Below are positions 32,193 through 39,098 of a stretch of DNA of 39,098 bases, in pieces. The stretch's first letter is position 1. Every line of letters begins with the position of its first letter. The DNA is from Gammaproteobacteria bacterium (GTDB lineage: Bacteria > Pseudomonadota > Gammaproteobacteria > S012-40). Position numbers and translations under genes: made by a program. Below the pieces are notes generated by a model. That model ran no database searches, was not told the DNA's origin, and saw only the letters and a program-made list of their open reading frames with translations. Where the stretch lies: NCBI GenBank assembly GCA_029884425.1, contig JAOUHV010000026.1, positions 1 to 39,098 of the forward strand, written 5' to 3'.

Positions 32193-33845
32193 TTACACAA
32201 ACTTTTCACCAAACAGCGGCAACCCCTGCTCACCGATTTTCTGCCGAAATACGTCGTTAAACAAAAACGCCGCAACCTCCAGCGATACCACTCGACTATG
32301 CCGCCGGGCAATTTCCATTGCCTGCTCTCGACTGTAGCGAGGGCGGGTGCGAAACTTTCCTGCTCCATCGGCGACCTGCCACTTTTCCTGCTTGCGCACA
32401 ACATTCAACCAGGGATCGCGAGTTTCAATCTGCGTGCTTGTCACCGAGAGATTGGCGCATTTGCCGATTCGCGCCAATATCTGCGGAATTTCCGCATCAT
32501 AGCGTCGAACAATGGCTGACAAATTTCCCGTATAGCGTAACGCTTGAATCTGGCCACTGGCCCAGGCTATACCGTCGTAACCGTTTTGCAGCGCACGCAA
32601 CAGCATCAGCTTGCAAACCAAACTCACCCATTCATTGCGAAATGGCGCGAACGGAATCTCACCCCAGGGATTATTGTCGTATCCGTGAATGGCTCCCTGC
32701 TGATGCCAGTCACTTTGCAATTCTTCGATAAACAACAAATGCCGACCTTGGTGATCAACGCGTGTTGTGGTCCGCACATGCGCCAAGACGTTATGGTCGT
32801 AAAAATGCGCACCGAAAAATGTACGCTGATAATCCGGCAACATGATTAACCATTCTCGATAATCATCACCGCCATGCAGAGTCAAATAATCATAACGGGT
32901 GTGGTTACGCACACCGCCACGAACACCCAACTGTTCAGTTGCATGTCGATTTGCTGCGCGCATGGCCTGCGCACTGCTGTCGTAATATTTAGCCATACCG
33001 CGCGACTCATCACAGACCGGTCGGCCATAGCTATCCAATACAAACCAATAGCGGTTCATCGCCTGATAATGGCCATAAGCCAGCGTTTTAACGACACCGA
33101 CACGATAATTGTAATCATCATTGACGTAGCGCAGGATGCCGTAACAACTACGATCCAATTTTAGCGCTGCACGCACCTGCGCCTGATGAGGAAATTTCAA
33201 CGCGACTTCGCGAAATGCCAACTGGCCTTGCGTATCCCAGATTCGTTCCAGCGACATTTCCAGACGGATGTTGCGAAAATCAATCGCTGCCAACAACTGT
33301 TGCAGGGTCAGTGTTTGCGTGTCCGGCAATGACTTTAAAAAATCACGCACACCCGACCAATGCAATTCATCCTGTCGCAAACCAAATTGGGCCAAATTCT
33401 GTAGTGATGCTCGCCACTGGGCAACGGAAGCACGCTGCAGCGATGTGGATTGCAGCCAACGAACCAGCGCACTATGCAAGCCGGCAGGAGCAGTGCTGTT
33501 TTTTACTGAGATATCGGTTTGACAACCGATCAGACGTGTGCGTGAAGATTCGATGAGACGCTGTTGCGCAGGTTCGCACAGCCAATCGTAAAAACGTTGC
33601 TTGTCATTCGCCGACCAATCCTCCGCCAAACGAACATCAGCAACTGTGTAGCCGGCATAGCGATAGTCAAACTCACGCCAGCCCATGCGAAATCCACCAT
33701 GGTCATGACGTGTTCGATAAATCACATCCACCACGGCGTACAACTGGCGATGCCCTGCCGTCTGGGGGATTTGTTTGCGCAGGGCATGATAGCGCGCCCG
33801 ATCCACGGAAAGCGCAACACCCCTGCCATCGCTCAGTACCAACAT
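32193..33845 (-). CDS. Hypothetical protein with phage polyvalent-protein-like domain
   Basis: 550 residues from the ATG at 33845, chosen because GGAGAAGG precedes it (ATG 33863 lacks a site). Not assigned to a named family. The segment from about 325 to 420 contains YREWLIMLPDY, GAHFYDHNVLAHVRTTTRVD, LLFIEELQSDWHQ and GIAWASGQIQ. The EE(L/I)QSDWHQ block recurs, to my knowledge, in large phage and plasmid polyvalent proteins and in stand-alone bacterial proteins of unknown function. No signal peptide or membrane helix. Here it lies between cbbR and csoS1D without phage genes nearby. Could be a domesticated element protein; a link to carboxysomes is not shown. Confidence 0.7.
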   Translation of the reverse strand: MLVLSDGRGVALSVDRARYHALRKQIPQTAGHRQLYAVVDVIYRTRHDHGGFRMGWREFDYRYAGYTVADVRLAEDWSANDKQRFYDWLCEPAQQRLIESSRTRLIGCQTDISVKNSTAPAGLHSALVRWLQSTSLQRASVAQWRASLQNLAQFGLRQDELHWSGVRDFLKSLPDTQTLTLQQLLAAIDFRNIRLEMSLERIWDTQGQLAFREVALKFPHQAQVRAALKLDRSCYGILRYVNDDYNYRVGVVKTLAYGHYQAMNRYWFVLDSYGRPVCDESRGMAKYYDSSAQAMRAANRHATEQLGVRGGVRNHTRYDYLTLHGGDDYREWLIMLPDYQRTFFGAHFYDHNVLAHVRTTTRVDHQGRHLLFIEELQSDWHQQGAIHGYDNNPWGEIPFAPFRNEWVSLVCKLMLLRALQNGYDGIAWASGQIQALRYTGNLSAIVRRYDAEIPQILARIGKCANLSVTSTQIETRDPWLNVVRKQEKWQVADGAGKFRTRPRYSREQAMEIARRHSRVVSLEVAAFLFNDVFRQKIGEQGLPLFGEKFV

Positions 33846-33978
33846 GCCCACCTTCTCCAACATTCAGTAAGGGAAGAAAACCGCGACACCTATACCATAG
33901 TAATTTAATCAACTTCTATGATCGTATCAACAAGCTCAGACATGTTCAAACTTTTTTATTCAAACCGCGCTGCGCAAA

Positions 33979-35010
33979 TTAGCGGTTTTCTCTCAACCCC
34001 AAACTGCGCCAGCGTTCCTGGTGAATCAAGCTAAAATCCGACAACAACTTGTTCATGTGATCGCGAATTTCCGGCCCTTTTTTCTGTGCATATTCCAGGA
34101 AGGTTTTAGCGATCAATGACAGCTCGCGCTCCTTGGGATAAACCAAATACCACTGACGGTGAATGGGAAAGCCTTCAACATCCAAAATATCCACAGGGCC
34201 CGTGGCACCTTCCAGTGTCAAGGTATGCAGCGACAAAATCGACACACCCAAGCCACCCACTACGGCATGCTTGATTGCCTCGTTACTGCCCAGCTCCATT
34301 CTCACCTTAGGCTGCAGACCGTGGTCACGAAACAGACGTGTCGTCACGTCGCGGATACCCGAACCGGGTTCACGCAAAATCAAAGGCTCTTGCGCCAAAC
34401 GTTCCAGCGAAATATTGCGCTCACGCGTCAACGGATGACTCTTGCCGGCCACCACCACCATGGGGTTGGGCGCAAAAGGAATAGAGATCAAACCTGCTTC
34501 TTCCGGTGCCTGGCCAAGCACATACAAGTCGTCATCACCCTGACTGATGCGTTCCAGTACACGTTCGCGATTGGTGACCTTGAGGGACACATCAATCTCG
34601 GGATATTCGTTGCAAAATCCGCCAAGAATTTCCGGCGCAAAATATTTTGCCGTGGTAATAACCCCAAGACGTAACCGGCCTCTTTTCAGGCCCTTATAGC
34701 CAGCAATTGATGATTCCAAATTGCTGAGAATGTCAAACATCCCCTTGCAGGAGCGATATAACTCCATTCCCACATCCGTAGGGCGGGTTTTGCGCTCAAC
34801 TTGCTCAAACAATGGCAAGCCAATCGTGTCCGACAATTTTTTAATCTGCATGGACACGGTCGGTTGAGTTAGAAACAACTCTTCAGCGGCTTTGGTATAA
34901 CTGCCCAGGCGGACAATGGCCTCAAAAATCTGTAACTGCCGTAAGGTCAAGTGACGAATCAGGTGATCCGGCATTGCACTTACTACGTGCAGTTCACGCT
35001 CGTCAGTATT
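33979..35010 (-). CDS. cbbR: LysR-type regulator CbbR
   Basis: 343 residues from the ATG at 35010, which has AAAGGAC; ATG 35064 and 34974 are alternatives. N-terminal winged helix (LTLRQLQIFEAIVRLGSYTKAAEELFLTQPTVSMQIKKL), then a periplasmic-binding-like effector domain. The QPTVSMQIKKL and PLFEQVERK segments match CbbR/RbcR of autotrophs, regulators of Calvin-cycle and CO2-concentrating genes that respond to metabolites such as RuBP, PEP or NADPH. Last gene of the sbtA-sbtB-cbbR run, 63 bp after sbtB; usually cbbR is divergent from its target operon. Confidence 0.88.
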   Translation of the reverse strand, partial: NTDERELHVVSAMPDHLIRHLTLRQLQIFEAIVRLGSYTKAAEELFLTQPTVSMQIKKLSDTIGLPLFEQVERKTRPTDVGMELYRSCKGMFDILSNLESSIAGYKGLKRGRLRLGVITTAKYFAPEILGGFCNEYPEIDVSLKVTNRERVLERISQGDDDLYVLGQAPEEAGLISIPFAPNPMVVVAGKSHPLTRERNISLERLAQEPLILREPGSGIRDVTTRLFRDHGLQPKVRMELGSNEAIKHAVVGGLGVSILSLHTLTLEGATGPVDILDVEGFPIHRQWYLVYPKERELSLIAKTFLEYAQKKGPEIRDHMNKLLSDFSLIHQERWRSLGLRENR

Positions 35011-35073
35011 CATTCTTAGTCCTTTTCCGACCCGTTCAGGGGCCTCCAGCATATCACTGACCATACAAATCGA

Positions 35074-35394
35074 CTATTCCATTGGTTTAGAAAATTTCTC
35101 TGGCGCAATAACCTGGATATCAGAGACAAAAATGGTTAATCGATAGCCTTTGGCAATTTGCCGCTGCAGGCCGTCTAGCAGGCGTTGCAGCTTTTCTTCA
35201 GGCACAATAACCTTAACCATGATGTTGGCTTCAAAATCCAGTGAACCTTCCAGTTCACCACAAATTCCCTCACCATATACTCGGATAATGGAATAACCAC
35301 TTACACCATGGCGGCGAAACATTTCGCGCAGCTTGTCTTGCAACACATCCATGGTAATGACATTGACTAACTTGTAAGGATAAAGTTTGGGCAT
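35074..35394 (-). CDS. sbtB: SbtB-like PII-family regulator
   Basis: 106 residues, AGGAC before the ATG, 23 bp after sbtA. A PII/GlnB-type ferredoxin fold: LVNVITMDVLQDKLREMFRRHGVSGYSIIRVYGEG, T-loop region GELEGSLDFEANIMVKVIV, then QRQIAKGYRLTIFVSDIQVI. SbtB proteins bind cyclic AMP/ADP/AMP and inhibit SbtA. The C-terminal CGPxGC redox loop seen in many cyanobacterial SbtBs is missing (ends KFSKPME), so redox control as in cyanobacteria is not expected. Confidence 0.87.
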   Translation of the reverse strand: MPKLYPYKLVNVITMDVLQDKLREMFRRHGVSGYSIIRVYGEGICGELEGSLDFEANIMVKVIVPEEKLQRLLDGLQRQIAKGYRLTIFVSDIQVIAPEKFSKPME

Positions 35395-35417: not shown

Positions 35418-36446
35418 CTAAACACCGGCCAAATACTGGACGTACCAGTAATACAACGGGATTCCAATAAGCACATTGAACGGGAAGGTAATTCCTAGCG
35501 ACAACGTCAAATAAAACGACGGGTTTGCCTCAGGTACTGCCAACCTCATTGCTGGCGGCACGGCAATGTAGGAGGCACTGGCGCCCAACACCGCAACGAG
35601 GGTCGCACCACCCACGCTAAAACCAAGGATGCTATAGCCAACAAAACCACCCACGGCACCACCAAACAGAGGCATGACGATACCAAAGGCTGCCAACACC
35701 AAACCGACCTTTTTAAATTCCTTGATACGGCGCGCAGCTTCCATGCCCATCTCGAACAAGAACAGACACAGTACACCCATGAAAATTTCATCAATGAACG
35801 GCATCAGTTTTTGAATTCCAGATGGCTGTGCAATTGCACCAATCACCATCGAACCAATCAACACCACCACACTGCCATTAGTAAACGCGTCACGTAACAA
35901 GTGGGAGAAACTTCCGTTCGAGTCATTGTTATCATACAGCGATGCAGTACCGTCATTGTTTGCCAGCACGGGCGCTGAAGATGCTAAACGTTTTCTGGCA
36001 AAAGCAGCCAAAACTAGGCCAACAATGATCGCCGGCGATTCCATCACCGCCAGCATAATCAGCGGATACGACTCGTAATGAATTGATGAGCTATCAAGAA
36101 ACGCAATGGCGGTTAAGAATGTACCGGCACTAACAGAACCATAATGCGCAGAAATGGCCGCCGCATCCATGGGACTGACACGCTTAGTCAATATCAGCGC
36201 CAGATAACCCAAGATTGGCAAGCTAAAACCTAATATCAGAGCCCAAACAATCGAGTTTACCGCGATCGACAATTCTGCTTTTGCCAACTCGTATCCGCCA
36301 TGAAGACCGATGGCCATCAGCAAATAGATGGCCAATACTTTAGCCAAATCGGGTGGGAATTTGAGATCTGATTTAATGATTCTTGCAATAACACCCAGTG
36401 CAAAAAAAAGTACCGCAGGAATCAAAAGATTATTCAAACTGGACAT
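35418..36446 (-). CDS. sbtA: Sodium-dependent bicarbonate transporter SbtA
   Basis: 342 residues with GGAGG before the ATG. About ten membrane helices in two inverted repeats. Recognisable SbtA motifs: LLIPAVLFFALGV, KFPPDLAKVLAIYLLMAIGLHGGYELA, AAAISAHYGSVSAGTF (substrate and sodium site) and GASASYIAVPPAMRLAVPEANPSFYLTLSLGITFPFNV. A large cytoplasmic loop lies in the middle (about 145-185). High-affinity Na+/HCO3- symporter that loads bicarbonate for the carboxysome. Located 105 bp after the small ORF and 23 bp before sbtB. Confidence 0.95.
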   Translation of the reverse strand: MSSLNNLLIPAVLFFALGVIARIIKSDLKFPPDLAKVLAIYLLMAIGLHGGYELAKAELSIAVNSIVWALILGFSLPILGYLALILTKRVSPMDAAAISAHYGSVSAGTFLTAIAFLDSSSIHYESYPLIMLAVMESPAIIVGLVLAAFARKRLASSAPVLANNDGTASLYDNNDSNGSFSHLLRDAFTNGSVVVLIGSMVIGAIAQPSGIQKLMPFIDEIFMGVLCLFLFEMGMEAARRIKEFKKVGLVLAAFGIVMPLFGGAVGGFVGYSILGFSVGGATLVAVLGASASYIAVPPAMRLAVPEANPSFYLTLSLGITFPFNVLIGIPLYYWYVQYLAGV

Positions 36447-36551: not shown

Positions 36552-36710
36552 TCAGTCCGGCCAAACCCGACGAGAAGGGATTATCCTAATGTCGTCCGAT
36601 TGATCGCGACGTGCTGGCTTTTCGTTTTTGTTGCCAGACATTTTCTTTGACGCAGATTTGTCAGCGATATCGGCCTGTGCGTGATCTTTAACTTGCTTTT
36701 CATCAGTCAT
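36552..36710 (-). CDS. Small charged protein (52 aa), unannotated carboxysome-operon ORF
   Basis: 52 residues: MTDEKQVKDHAQADIADKSA start, then SKKMSGNKNEKPARRDQSDD and a basic C-terminus IRIIPSRRVWPD. Highly charged, low in hydrophobic residues, so probably disordered. Its ATG overlaps the acRAF stop as TAATG, so translation is likely coupled. No family recognised. Small charged or disordered proteins are often scaffold or positioning factors in carboxysome loci, but a role is not inferable from sequence. Confidence 0.6.
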   Translation of the reverse strand: MTDEKQVKDHAQADIADKSASKKMSGNKNEKPARRDQSDDIRIIPSRRVWPD

Positions 36711-37012
36711 TACTGTCTACCTTCCACCGAGTATTCTGCGTGCAAAACCTCACGAACTTTATTCGCGGGCGTGAATTCGTTTATCTTTTTGGCAAAATCT
36801 ATCTTTACATCATCAATAAGATCATCAGATTCGCGCGCATAAATCGTCATATTGACGTGCGTTTTGGCAAAATTAATGTCCGGGTAATACCCTTCTTTCT
36901 CAGACAACTCTGCTGCCTGTTCAAGGAAATCCCGAGTCATTTCGTAGTTATCAAAATCAATTCTACGTTCAAGGCGTGTCGGACGCTTACGCAAAACCCA
37001 GTTTTCAACCAT
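36710..37012 (-). CDS. acRAF-like pterin-dehydratase-fold RuBisCO assembly factor
   Basis: 100 residues from the ATG at 37012 (TGATG overlap with the ferritin-like gene, GGGAG at good spacing; ATG 37018 is too close to that site). PCD-like domain: WVLRKRPTRLERRIDFDNYEMTRDFLEQAAELSEKEGYYPDINFAKTHVNMTIY. The canonical pterin-dehydratase active-site His-His pattern is replaced, as in the acRAF family, which helps fold form IA RuBisCO in alpha-carboxysome operons. Located between the ferritin-like gene and a 52-residue ORF, all overlapping. Confidence 0.82.
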   Translation of the reverse strand: MVENWVLRKRPTRLERRIDFDNYEMTRDFLEQAAELSEKEGYYPDINFAKTHVNMTIYARESDDLIDDVKIDFAKKINEFTPANKVREVLHAEYSVEGRQ

Positions 37013-37485
37013 CACCATTCTCCCAGCGATCTTTCATAATTAAACATGCCTGACAGCTCTTGCTGGATATTTACCCAGTCAGCCGAGTGTTTTTTCTCAT
37101 CCGCAAGCAGCTGCTCAAAGAATATTCTTCCGTCAAAATCATTAATTTTTGCGCAATAATTTACTGCAACCTGGTAGAAGCCAACGATTTCCGTTTCGAA
37201 CTCACTGGCACTAAGCAGGAGTTCAGGCAACGAATTTTCCACCCTTGCACTACGCAACTGTGTCCGACCTGGTGCAACACCAAGAATCAGCATGCGGCTA
37301 ATAATTTTTTCCACATGAATCATTTCGTCCATTGCTTCTGAACGAAATTTTTCAGAGAGATCTGAGAATCCACGCAAATGCAATACACGTGACAATGTCA
37401 TGTACTGCTGGACAGCGGTCATTTCCAGGCTAAGAGCACGACCAAGAAAGCCAAGGACCATAGGATCTGTATTTGCGTAAACCAT
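37012..37485 (-). CDS. Bacterioferritin-like carboxysome-operon protein
   Basis: 157 residues, full four-helix ferritin length. Ferroxidase ligands are all present: Glu21, Glu54/His57 (EMIH), Glu in EFETE (95-99), Glu130/His133 (EKKH). The Met in EMIH corresponds to the haem-ligand Met of bacterioferritin. Genes of this type are regular parts of cso operons; their role there is unsettled (iron storage or protection). No strong ribosome binding site. Its stop overlaps the acRAF ATG. Follows the hairpin at 37505-37574. Confidence 0.85.
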   Translation of the reverse strand: MVYANTDPMVLGFLGRALSLEMTAVQQYMTLSRVLHLRGFSDLSEKFRSEAMDEMIHVEKIISRMLILGVAPGRTQLRSARVENSLPELLLSASEFETEIVGFYQVAVNYCAKINDFDGRIFFEQLLADEKKHSADWVNIQQELSGMFNYERSLGEW

Positions 37486-37587: not shown

Positions 37588-37896
37588 TTACATGCGGTTT
37601 TGGTTGCCACTGTTGTTCAGAACAGTCTCAACCTCACGATGTGGACGAGCGATGATGTGGGCTGCAACCAGACCATCACCTACGCGCTCACAAGCGTCAG
37701 CACCGGCACGAACAGCTGCGTTAACCGCGCCTGTCTCACCACGAACCATCACAGTGACATAACCGCCGCCAACAAATTCTCTTGCAACCAGACGTACTTC
37801 TGCTGCCTTGGTCATCGCATCTGCCGCTTCGATAGCAGGCACCAGACCACGCGTTTCAATCATACCCAAAGCAATACCGTATGCTTCATTAGCCAT
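37588..37896 (-). CDS. csoS1A: Carboxysome shell protein CsoS1 (second copy)
   Basis: 102 residues, GAGGAG before ATG. Single BMC domain: [31 protein letters not shown], pore loop FVGGG, and HIIARPHREVE. Nearly identical to the adjacent copy; differs by Ala for Gly (VAREF), Met for Leu (VTVMV) and in the last 12 residues (LNNSGNQNRM). Forms hexamers tiling the facets. The C-terminal tail difference may allow mixed packing. Paralog letter is a guess. Confidence 0.93.
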   Translation of the reverse strand: MANEAYGIALGMIETRGLVPAIEAADAMTKAAEVRLVAREFVGGGYVTVMVRGETGAVNAAVRAGADACERVGDGLVAAHIIARPHREVETVLNNSGNQNRM

Positions 37897-37941: not shown

Positions 37942-38253
37942 TTAATCATTTGTCAGCGGTTTGCCAGAAGGAGGCAGAACGCTTTCTACTTCTTTGTGTG
38001 GGCGCGCGATAATGTGCGCAGCAACCAGACCATCACCTACACGCTCGCAAGCGTCAGCACCGGCACGAACGGCAGCGTTAACTGCACCAGTTTCGCCACG
38101 AACCAGCACGGTTACATAACCGCCACCAACAAATTCGCGACCAACCAAACGGACTTCCGCCGCTTTTGTCATCGCATCTGCTGCTTCGATGGCAGGCACC
38201 AAACCACGCGTTTCAATCATGCCCAACGCGATACCATAAGTTTCATTTGCCAT
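37942..38253 (-). CDS. csoS1C: Carboxysome shell protein CsoS1 (first copy)
   Basis: 103 residues, GGAGAG before ATG. BMC domain with pore FVGGG and closing [21 protein letters not shown]. Hexameric facet protein of alpha-carboxysomes whose pore admits bicarbonate. Lies 45 bp upstream of a near-identical copy and 73 bp after csoS4B. Which of the CsoS1A/C paralogues it corresponds to cannot be decided from this sequence. Confidence 0.93.
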
Positions 38254-38326: not shown

Positions 38327-38569
38327 TTATTCCCAGAAGTCGATGACTCCGCCAATTGTCAAATCTGTTATCAACGCTTTGTCATCCAGCGCCAATCTTG
38401 CTGCTGAGCCACTGATAGTGAACACCCAGCTTCCCGGATTGCTTCCTATGGTATCCACCGCTACTTGCAACTTTCCTTTGCGATCACGCAAAACTCGCAA
38501 CGGTAGATTCCCCATTCCGGGATGGCGATAGGTACACACCAAAGGTCCTACCACCTGAAAAACATCCAT
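38327..38569 (-). CDS. csoS4B: Carboxysome vertex protein CsoS4B
   Basis: 80 residues. BMV/CcmL-type pentamer: MDVFQVVGPLVCTYRHPGMGNLPLRVLRD...VAVDTIGSNPGSWVFTISGSAARLAL...DLTIGGVIDFW. Caps the icosahedral vertices. Its ATG overlaps the csoS4A stop (TAATG), with GGGAGGG before. Confidence 0.93.
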   Translation of the reverse strand: MDVFQVVGPLVCTYRHPGMGNLPLRVLRDRKGKLQVAVDTIGSNPGSWVFTISGSAARLALDDKALITDLTIGGVIDFWE

Positions 38570-38817
38570 TACTTCCCTCCCGTCCAGTGATCAATGATGC
38601 CAACAATGGTCAGATCGGACGGATAATCTCTTGAACCTGCAGCATCACGCGCTGCGGAACTTCCTACACACAAAACCCAATCACCCGGAGCCGCACCAAC
38701 CGAATCAACTGCCACCATCATGCTGCTACCATCGCGGACAATCTGCAGATGCTTGTGCTGCAAACCAGCAATTCGATTGGTCGCCACCAACGGTTTTTCT
38801 ACTTGATAGATTTTCAT
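38569..38817 (-). CDS. csoS4A: Carboxysome vertex protein CsoS4A
   Basis: 82 residues from the ATG at 38817, overlapping the csoSCA stop (TGATG), AGGAG at good spacing; the preceding TTG codon is an unlikely start. Pentameric vertex fold: MKIYQVEKPLVATNRIAGLQHKHLQIVRD, VAVDSVGAAPGDWVLCVGSSAARDA, DLTIVGIIDHW. Works with CsoS4B to close the shell. Confidence 0.94.
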   Translation of the reverse strand: MKIYQVEKPLVATNRIAGLQHKHLQIVRDGSSMMVAVDSVGAAPGDWVLCVGSSAARDAAGSRDYPSDLTIVGIIDHWTGGK

Positions 38818-39098
38818 CAATGAGCTCCTGCGCTGGTTTTCTGTTCTGCAGAGCTAGCGATCACTTCGATGCTTGCACCTGCATGACAATCTCTGACCAC
38901 CAACAAGGTATGTAACATCCCGCTTGCTGCCTGTTCACTAAAGCGTTTACGAAATGCCAAATCAAGATTTTCACAGCGAGCAATCGCGCGCTCTTTTGCT
39001 CCTGGTACATTACCGTGGTAGTCGTAACGAATGACCACCGGAATTGGCAAGCCGCGACTAACATTCAGACCGGTGAAAATTTTCACACCCACGTCCAA
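38817..39098 (-). CDS. csoSCA: Carboxysomal carbonic anhydrase CsoSCA, C-terminal part
   Basis: Only the last 93 residues are in the window; the gene continues beyond the right edge. Sequence (GVKIFTGLNVSRGLPIPVVIRYDYHGNVPGAKERAIARC...LVVRDCHAGASIEVI) matches the catalytically inactive C-terminal domain of the epsilon-type carbonic anhydrase that converts bicarbonate to CO2 inside the shell. Position before csoS4A is canonical. Confidence 0.9.
   Translation of the reverse strand: MDVGVKIFTGLNVSRGLPIPVVIRYDYHGNVPGAKERAIARCENLDLAFRKRFSEQAASGMLHTLLVVRDCHAGASIEVIASSAEQKTSAGAH

Follow-up and report, generated by a model that had tools for sequence, protein, structure and literature searches.

The window, i.e., the whole 39,098-nucleotide stretch analyzed, runs at its high-numbered end into a cso (alpha-carboxysome) gene cluster read on the minus strand. 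The features that bear on the 52-residue ORF between the Rubisco assembly factor and bicarbonate transporter genes are as follows.

33979–35064, minus strand: LysR regulator, CbbR-like (PF00126 and PF03466)
35074–35394, minus strand: PII-family protein, SbtB-like by position only (PF00543)
35418–36446, minus strand: SbtA-type bicarbonate transporter, 105 nt 3′ of the 52-residue ORF (PF05982)
36552–36710, minus strand: 52-aa ORF, almost certainly an orphan alpha-McdB (RRVWPD compared with the alpha-McdB consensus; relatives at the same place)
36555–36584, minus strand: last 10 residues of the orphan, IIPSRRVWPD, predicted carboxysome-docking tag (R(V/I)WPD consensus and Halothiobacillus McdB tail data)
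36651–36710, minus strand: first 20 residues of the orphan, the McdA-binding helix region of cognates, motif absent (PSSM)
36708–36712, minus strand: TAATG overlap of acRAF stop and mcdB start, with Shine-Dalgarno-like GGAAGG 9 nt before the ATG
36710–37018, minus strand: acRAF, pterin-4a-carbinolamine-dehydratase-like Rubisco assembly factor (PF01329; acRAF profile)
37012–37485, minus strand: bacterioferritin-like protein of the cso cluster (PF00210)
37588–37896 and 37942–38253, minus strand: two CsoS1-type shell hexamer genes (PF00936)
38327–38569 and 38569–38820, minus strand: two CsoS4-type pentamer genes (PF03319)
38817–39098, minus strand: C-terminal end of CsoSCA, the gene being cut by the contig end (PF08936)

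The ORF reads on the minus strand from an ATG at 36710 down to a TGA ending at 36552 and translates as MTDEKQVKDHAQADIADKSASKKMSGNKNEKPARRDQSDDIRIIPSRRVWPD; on the plus strand, the same frame across 36552–36710 is interrupted by a stop. Its ATG shares the TAATG with the TAA of acRAF, as originally predicted, and GGAAGG lies 9 nt 5′ of that ATG. The expectation of a very charged, probably disordered protein is likewise supported, with D/E/K/R making up 42% of the residues and a charge-hydropathy calculation placing the protein on the disordered side of the plot. The original prediction also located the ORF at the end of the cso transcript. An end of transcript here is unsupported, because the 105-nt gap between mcdB and sbtA contains no terminator-like site on that strand; the SbtA, PII, and CbbR-like genes follow on the same strand. 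The best NCBIfam match of the LysR regulator was NF045990 (CbbR), with a score below the cut-off of that model. A 556-aa ORF (32193–33863, minus strand) adjoins the CbbR-like regulator gene.

McdB proteins serve as adaptors between alpha-carboxysomes and the McdA ATPase. The alpha-McdBs are characterized as disordered proteins of low hydrophobicity and biased composition that exist as monomers, form condensates, and attach to the carboxysome via the tail. The C terminus of the ORF, RRVWPD, matches the published alpha-McdB consensus R(V/I)WPD with the invariant tryptophan present, and its 52 residues fall inside the range of 51 to 169 reported for alpha-McdBs, which share an invariant WPD (PMC11321042). 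The gene immediately 5′ is acRAF and no mcdA adjoins, as opposed to the arrangement of type 1 (cognate) McdBs, whose genes come directly after mcdA. Type 2 (orphan) McdBs are defined by a position in the cso operon without a neighboring mcdA and by a separate mcdAB locus, and both are found here, the latter on contig 44 of the window's genome (G000:C44). Judged from tail, length, and gene order, the protein is almost certainly an orphan (type 2) alpha-McdB. An accessory carboxysome factor, as had been proposed, was the right direction, although the protein belongs to a known kind, being an orphan alpha-McdB that carries the published C-terminal tag. Among 591 window ORFs of at least 20 aa, the WPD ending is unique to this ORF. 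Across the 2.9-Mb genome, a nucleotide pattern encoding R(V/I)WPD plus stop gave four matches, and a reversed control gave none; the pattern wrote the stop as TRR and so also admitted TGG, and two of the four matches carry a true stop, both being McdB genes, while the other two read TGG.

At the second locus, on contig 44, a 212-aa ParA-type ATPase with KGGTGKTT is overlapped at its end by a 60-aa McdB (MTQKLADKLSASVRGAKK...IRFIPSRRVWPD) that also ends in RRVWPD. The ATPase was the best McdA match of the genome (337.6 bits), and the sole other match at E ≤ 1e-20 scored 92.6. The tails of cognate (IRFIPSRRVWPD) and orphan (IRIIPSRRVWPD) share 11 of their last 12 residues, whereas the first 20 residues carry a net charge of +4 in the cognate and −2 in the charge-rich orphan.

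To place this gene order among others, a profile from 16 acRAFs was run on an even draw of 370 genomes across the class. From this class draw, 77 of 78 matches at E 1.3e-15 or better were examined (76 genomes, the window's included), a second match in G309 (E 7e-17) being left out. A WPD-ended ORF lay 3′ of acRAF in 74 of the 77 loci. Fifty of these loci have McdA and then the WPD protein, 23 have the WPD protein directly after acRAF, and one (L138) has a WPD protein at McdB distance with McdA not recognized; neither McdA nor a WPD protein followed acRAF in 3 of the 77. The original prediction had made its case depend on a similar ORF in related genomes, and the 23 loci, the window's among them, supply it. 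Orphans with an intact WPD end thus occur in 23 class-draw genomes from 13 families, conservation of the tail being partly built in, as orphan detection demanded a W in that tail. A second set of named genomes, overlapping with those of the class draw, was represented by the best 80 of 88 loci. A WPD protein stands at post-McdA distance in 45 of these (McdA recognized in 43), and an orphan is found in 31, including that of Marichromatium gracile (L104). The remaining four are two contig ends inside McdA, one masked locus, and Thiococcus pfennigii (L119), in which a LysR gene comes after acRAF with no WPD ORF between, indicating that the orphan can be lost.

In Halothiobacillus McdB, McdA binding is reported to require the first 20 residues, which also suffice for it; K7 is critical, the hydrophobic residues L4, L8, and I12 are predicted to matter, and non-basic head residues contribute as well; upon weakening of the McdA–McdB interaction, carboxysome distribution turns to clustering (PMC12204374, a preprint, as excerpted). 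A first, strict version of a head motif was present in 31 of 45 in-operon McdBs, 16 of 16 distal McdBs, and none of 31 orphans (30 from the named set and the window's). After loosening, the motif was found in 45 of 45 in-operon and 16 of 16 distal McdBs (61/61 cognates) and in one of the 31 orphans, a set that is not independent, the loose motif having been made after the strict result and some in-operon starts having been trimmed with the strict motif. In the class draw (51 cognates and 23 orphans), the loose motif alone was present in 35 cognates and one orphan, a second motif in 46 cognates and no orphan, and at least one of the two in 50 cognates and one orphan; the second motif was written for this test itself, the draw partly overlaps the first set, and all in-frame starts were allowed in both groups. 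With a head PSSM, the 61 cognates scored 6.7 to 35.6 (leave-one-out) and the orphans −17.5 to 13.6, the orphan heads above the lowest cognate being L063 (13.6), L072 and L078 (9.1), and L134 (6.9). The window orphan scored −7.5, and shuffled orphan heads averaged −5.5. Over the first 20 residues, net charge averaged 0.8 for orphans, 3.7 for distal McdBs, and 2.8 for in-operon McdBs, with overlapping ranges. The head of the window orphan contains no motif and has a net charge that is not positive, yet many of its residues are charged.

Strong McdA matches (at least 279 bits) were present elsewhere in 17 of the 23 class-draw orphan genomes, ParA matches of 112 bits or less not being counted as McdA. 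No recognizable McdA was found in the other six (G127, G231, G282, G203, G201, and G123), which represent five families and are all at least 94% complete; an assembly gap could possibly explain a missing McdA, above all in G201, since McdA is present in its genus-mate G082. In the named set together with the window, McdA was found in 19 of 31 orphan genomes, the weaker cases being G390 (251 bits) and G394 (two pieces of 222 and 177 bits). The 12 orphan genomes without a recognizable McdA include those of Nitrococcus mobilis and Marichromatium bheemlicum; M. gracile likewise has none and keeps its orphan. In several draft genomes of the named set, incompleteness may account for the missing McdA. 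In 16 of the 19 genomes, the gene for the distal McdA is followed by one for a WPD protein. L178, L179, and L183 are distal McdA genes with no downstream WPD protein by the pattern used.

The lineages of these McdAs were examined in a phylogeny built from 77 McdAs and five other ParAs, from which some class-draw distal McdAs were left out, in which some rows are long, and for which the bootstrap had not settled. One branch (98/99) was made up of 17 of the 20 distal rows, two being duplicates; a further distal row joined it together with two rows of in-operon McdAs (83/94). The other branch (97/96) held 53 of 57 in-operon rows together with two distal rows. G006, a member of the window's own family, still has the in-operon McdA type. 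Most distal McdAs branch apart from in-operon McdAs, which suggests that positioning passed to a second McdAB system in genomes that lost the in-operon mcdA. The orphan of N. mobilis (L063) stands directly after acRAF with an in-operon-like head and tail, and on these features looks like an early stage of such a loss. Tail type showed no clear link to McdA in the class draw, being in-operon-like in 5 of the 17 orphans whose genomes have McdA and in 3 of the other 6.

Descent of the orphans was scored after removal of near-identical rows, which left 27. Heads leaned in-operon in 23 of 27, weakly (median 4.0 bits, as compared to 18.1 in genuine in-operon heads); the six residues before VWPD leaned distal in 21 of 27, or in 19 of 27 when 10 residues were taken. 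The window orphan does not look in-operon-like in either tail (−13.7 bits) or head (−3.4 bits); part of the head motif is kept in the L135 orphan. For 12 hand-chosen, non-independent pairs of related orphans, NG86 dN/dS was defined in 11, with 10 ratios below 1 (0.18 to 0.69) and one of 1.08, and YN00 dN/dS was defined in 7, with five below 1 and two above (about 2.1 and 1.06). Constraint on the orphans would be modest and is uncertain, the evidence being mixed. Shared docking might predict that the orphan and cognate tails of one genome covary, but no significant covariation was seen by identities in 16 pairs (P 0.12 to 0.34), in 13 pairs deduplicated by removal of near-identical rows (P 0.08 to 0.23), or in the 12 pairs left when the window was excluded (P 0.27 to 0.70). 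The tail match of the window is equaled by a cross-genome pair (L060 orphan and L101 cognate, 7 identities).

For carboxysome association, the final 10 residues of Halothiobacillus McdB reportedly suffice, and the tail tryptophan is required (PMC11321042, as excerpted). The orphan would be made together with the shell proteins via the acRAF overlap, would dock on the carboxysome through its tail, probably at the site of the cognate McdB, and would there present a charged disordered chain unable to engage McdA. Instead of acting as a motor adaptor, it may alter the surface behavior of the carboxysome, either by preventing sticking or by diluting the McdA-responsive McdB. Docking by the tail without McdA binding appears likely from the head and tail sequences. 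An McdA-independent surface role is quite conceivable, if short of probable, because genomes without a recognizable McdA (6 of 23 in the class draw, N. mobilis, and the two Marichromatium isolates) keep the orphan. The broader reading, in which orphan McdBs are a separate class of disordered carboxysome coats, made with the shell, working without McdA, and arising recurrently by loss of the in-operon mcdA, is put forward tentatively and with considerable doubt. If it holds, a second McdAB lineage often takes over positioning, and the orphan is useful even without any McdA.

Other explanations differ in what they make of head, tail, and McdA content. The ORF is real and more than a chance open frame: it has only 52 codons and matches no Pfam or NCBIfam model at E 0.001, though the cognate McdB of the genome has no match either, and it is the sole WPD-ended ORF of the 591 in the window, and 22 other class loci carry a comparable ORF in this position. 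Because placement and tail are conserved, the probability of a chance frame is negligible. A second cargo adaptor, with a degenerate head that still serves the distal McdA, would be in keeping with the charge-rich orphan head and with the contribution of non-basic head residues to McdA binding in Halothiobacillus (PMC12204374, as excerpted), but is very improbable given a window head at −7.5 against at least 6.7 in 61 cognates, with shuffles no worse (mean −5.5), and a first-20 net charge of −2 against +4 in the genome's own cognate. The orphan could instead be a competitor or brake, i.e., an McdA-blind protein that fills McdB docking sites and so tunes the separation of carboxysomes by McdA. 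The near-identity of its tail to that of the same-genome cognate (11 of the last 12 residues), the McdA found elsewhere in 17 of 23 orphan genomes, and the clustering seen in Halothiobacillus when the McdA–McdB interaction is weakened (PMC12204374, as excerpted) would all fit a brake. The 6 of 23 orphan genomes without recognizable McdA would leave such a protein nothing to compete with, and orphan and cognate tails do not covary significantly; a brake is regarded as unlikely.

The orphan might also be a leftover of an acRAF-mcdA-mcdB arrangement from which mcdA was lost, with the McdA-binding head decayed and the remainder drifting. This has the in-operon-like head and tail of N. mobilis in its favor, together with the partial head motif of L135, the position of most distal McdAs on another branch than the in-operon ones (as if systems had been swapped), the lack of a WPD ORF after acRAF in T. 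pfennigii, and the dN/dS ratios above 1 (1 of 11 by NG86 and 2 of 7 by YN00). Simple drift is nevertheless rather unlikely, as WPD ends are intact in 23 class-draw genomes from 13 families, dN/dS lies mostly below 1, and neither tail (−13.7 bits) nor head (−3.4 bits) of the window orphan looks in-operon-derived.

The reading of orphans as McdA-independent carboxysome coats bears on proteins that are already described. Orphaned alpha-McdBs of type 2, located in cso operons with mcdAB elsewhere, appear in a 2021 review that states their role as “to be determined” (PMC8262871, as excerpted). A 2021 paper reports orphan McdBs in numerous species and suggests an McdA-independent role of McdB from Synechococcus mutants and from the existence of orphans (PMC8406218, as excerpted). 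The puzzle is repeated in a 2026 review (PMC12918739, as excerpted), which sites the orphan away from the cso locus, in conflict with PMC8262871 and with the loci here, both of which have it inside the cso operon. A literature search found no experiment on an orphan McdB. The window's protein adds a member to this type, sharing with the excerpted description in PMC8262871 the cso operon, the lack of an adjoining mcdA, the C-terminal WPD, predicted disorder, the separate mcdAB pair, and, in terms of net charge, the missing positively charged head. It differs in that its head is charge-rich, though not net positive, and “lacks charged N terminus” suits it only when read as net positive charge. 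In addition, mcdAB is distant in that description, whereas some orphan genomes here have no recognizable McdA at all. Relative to the excerpted passages, two points are additions, namely that some orphan genomes have no recognizable McdA anywhere and that the McdA lineage changes; the original description of orphans may already contain both.

The orphan resembles the cognate McdB of Halothiobacillus neapolitanus in small size and predicted disorder, in the R(V/I)WPD tail, and in its location in a carboxysome gene cluster (PMC11321042 and PMC12204374, both as excerpted), but lacks the McdA-binding head motif and an adjoining mcdA and is about half as long; the Halothiobacillus tryptophan, W94, is third from the end (PMC11321042). 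McdB-like proteins of PDU and GRM microcompartments likewise have an aromatic residue near the C terminus, presumed to be the docking residue, which is Y or F instead of W and serves in other microcompartments (PMC11321042, as excerpted). Two McdBs with 11 of the last 12 residues in common, of which one has the McdA-binding head and the other does not, make the window's genome well suited to a clean comparison. The orphan genomes of Nitrococcus mobilis and Marichromatium, with no recognizable McdA, would permit a direct test of an McdA-independent role. The tails of L031 and L088 read LRWPD and LVWPD, showing that the residues preceding W vary. Repeated DPYQ- or DAFQ-like modules precede the WPD tail in the McdBs of L206, L212, L063, L088, and L113, as in a multivalent docking array.
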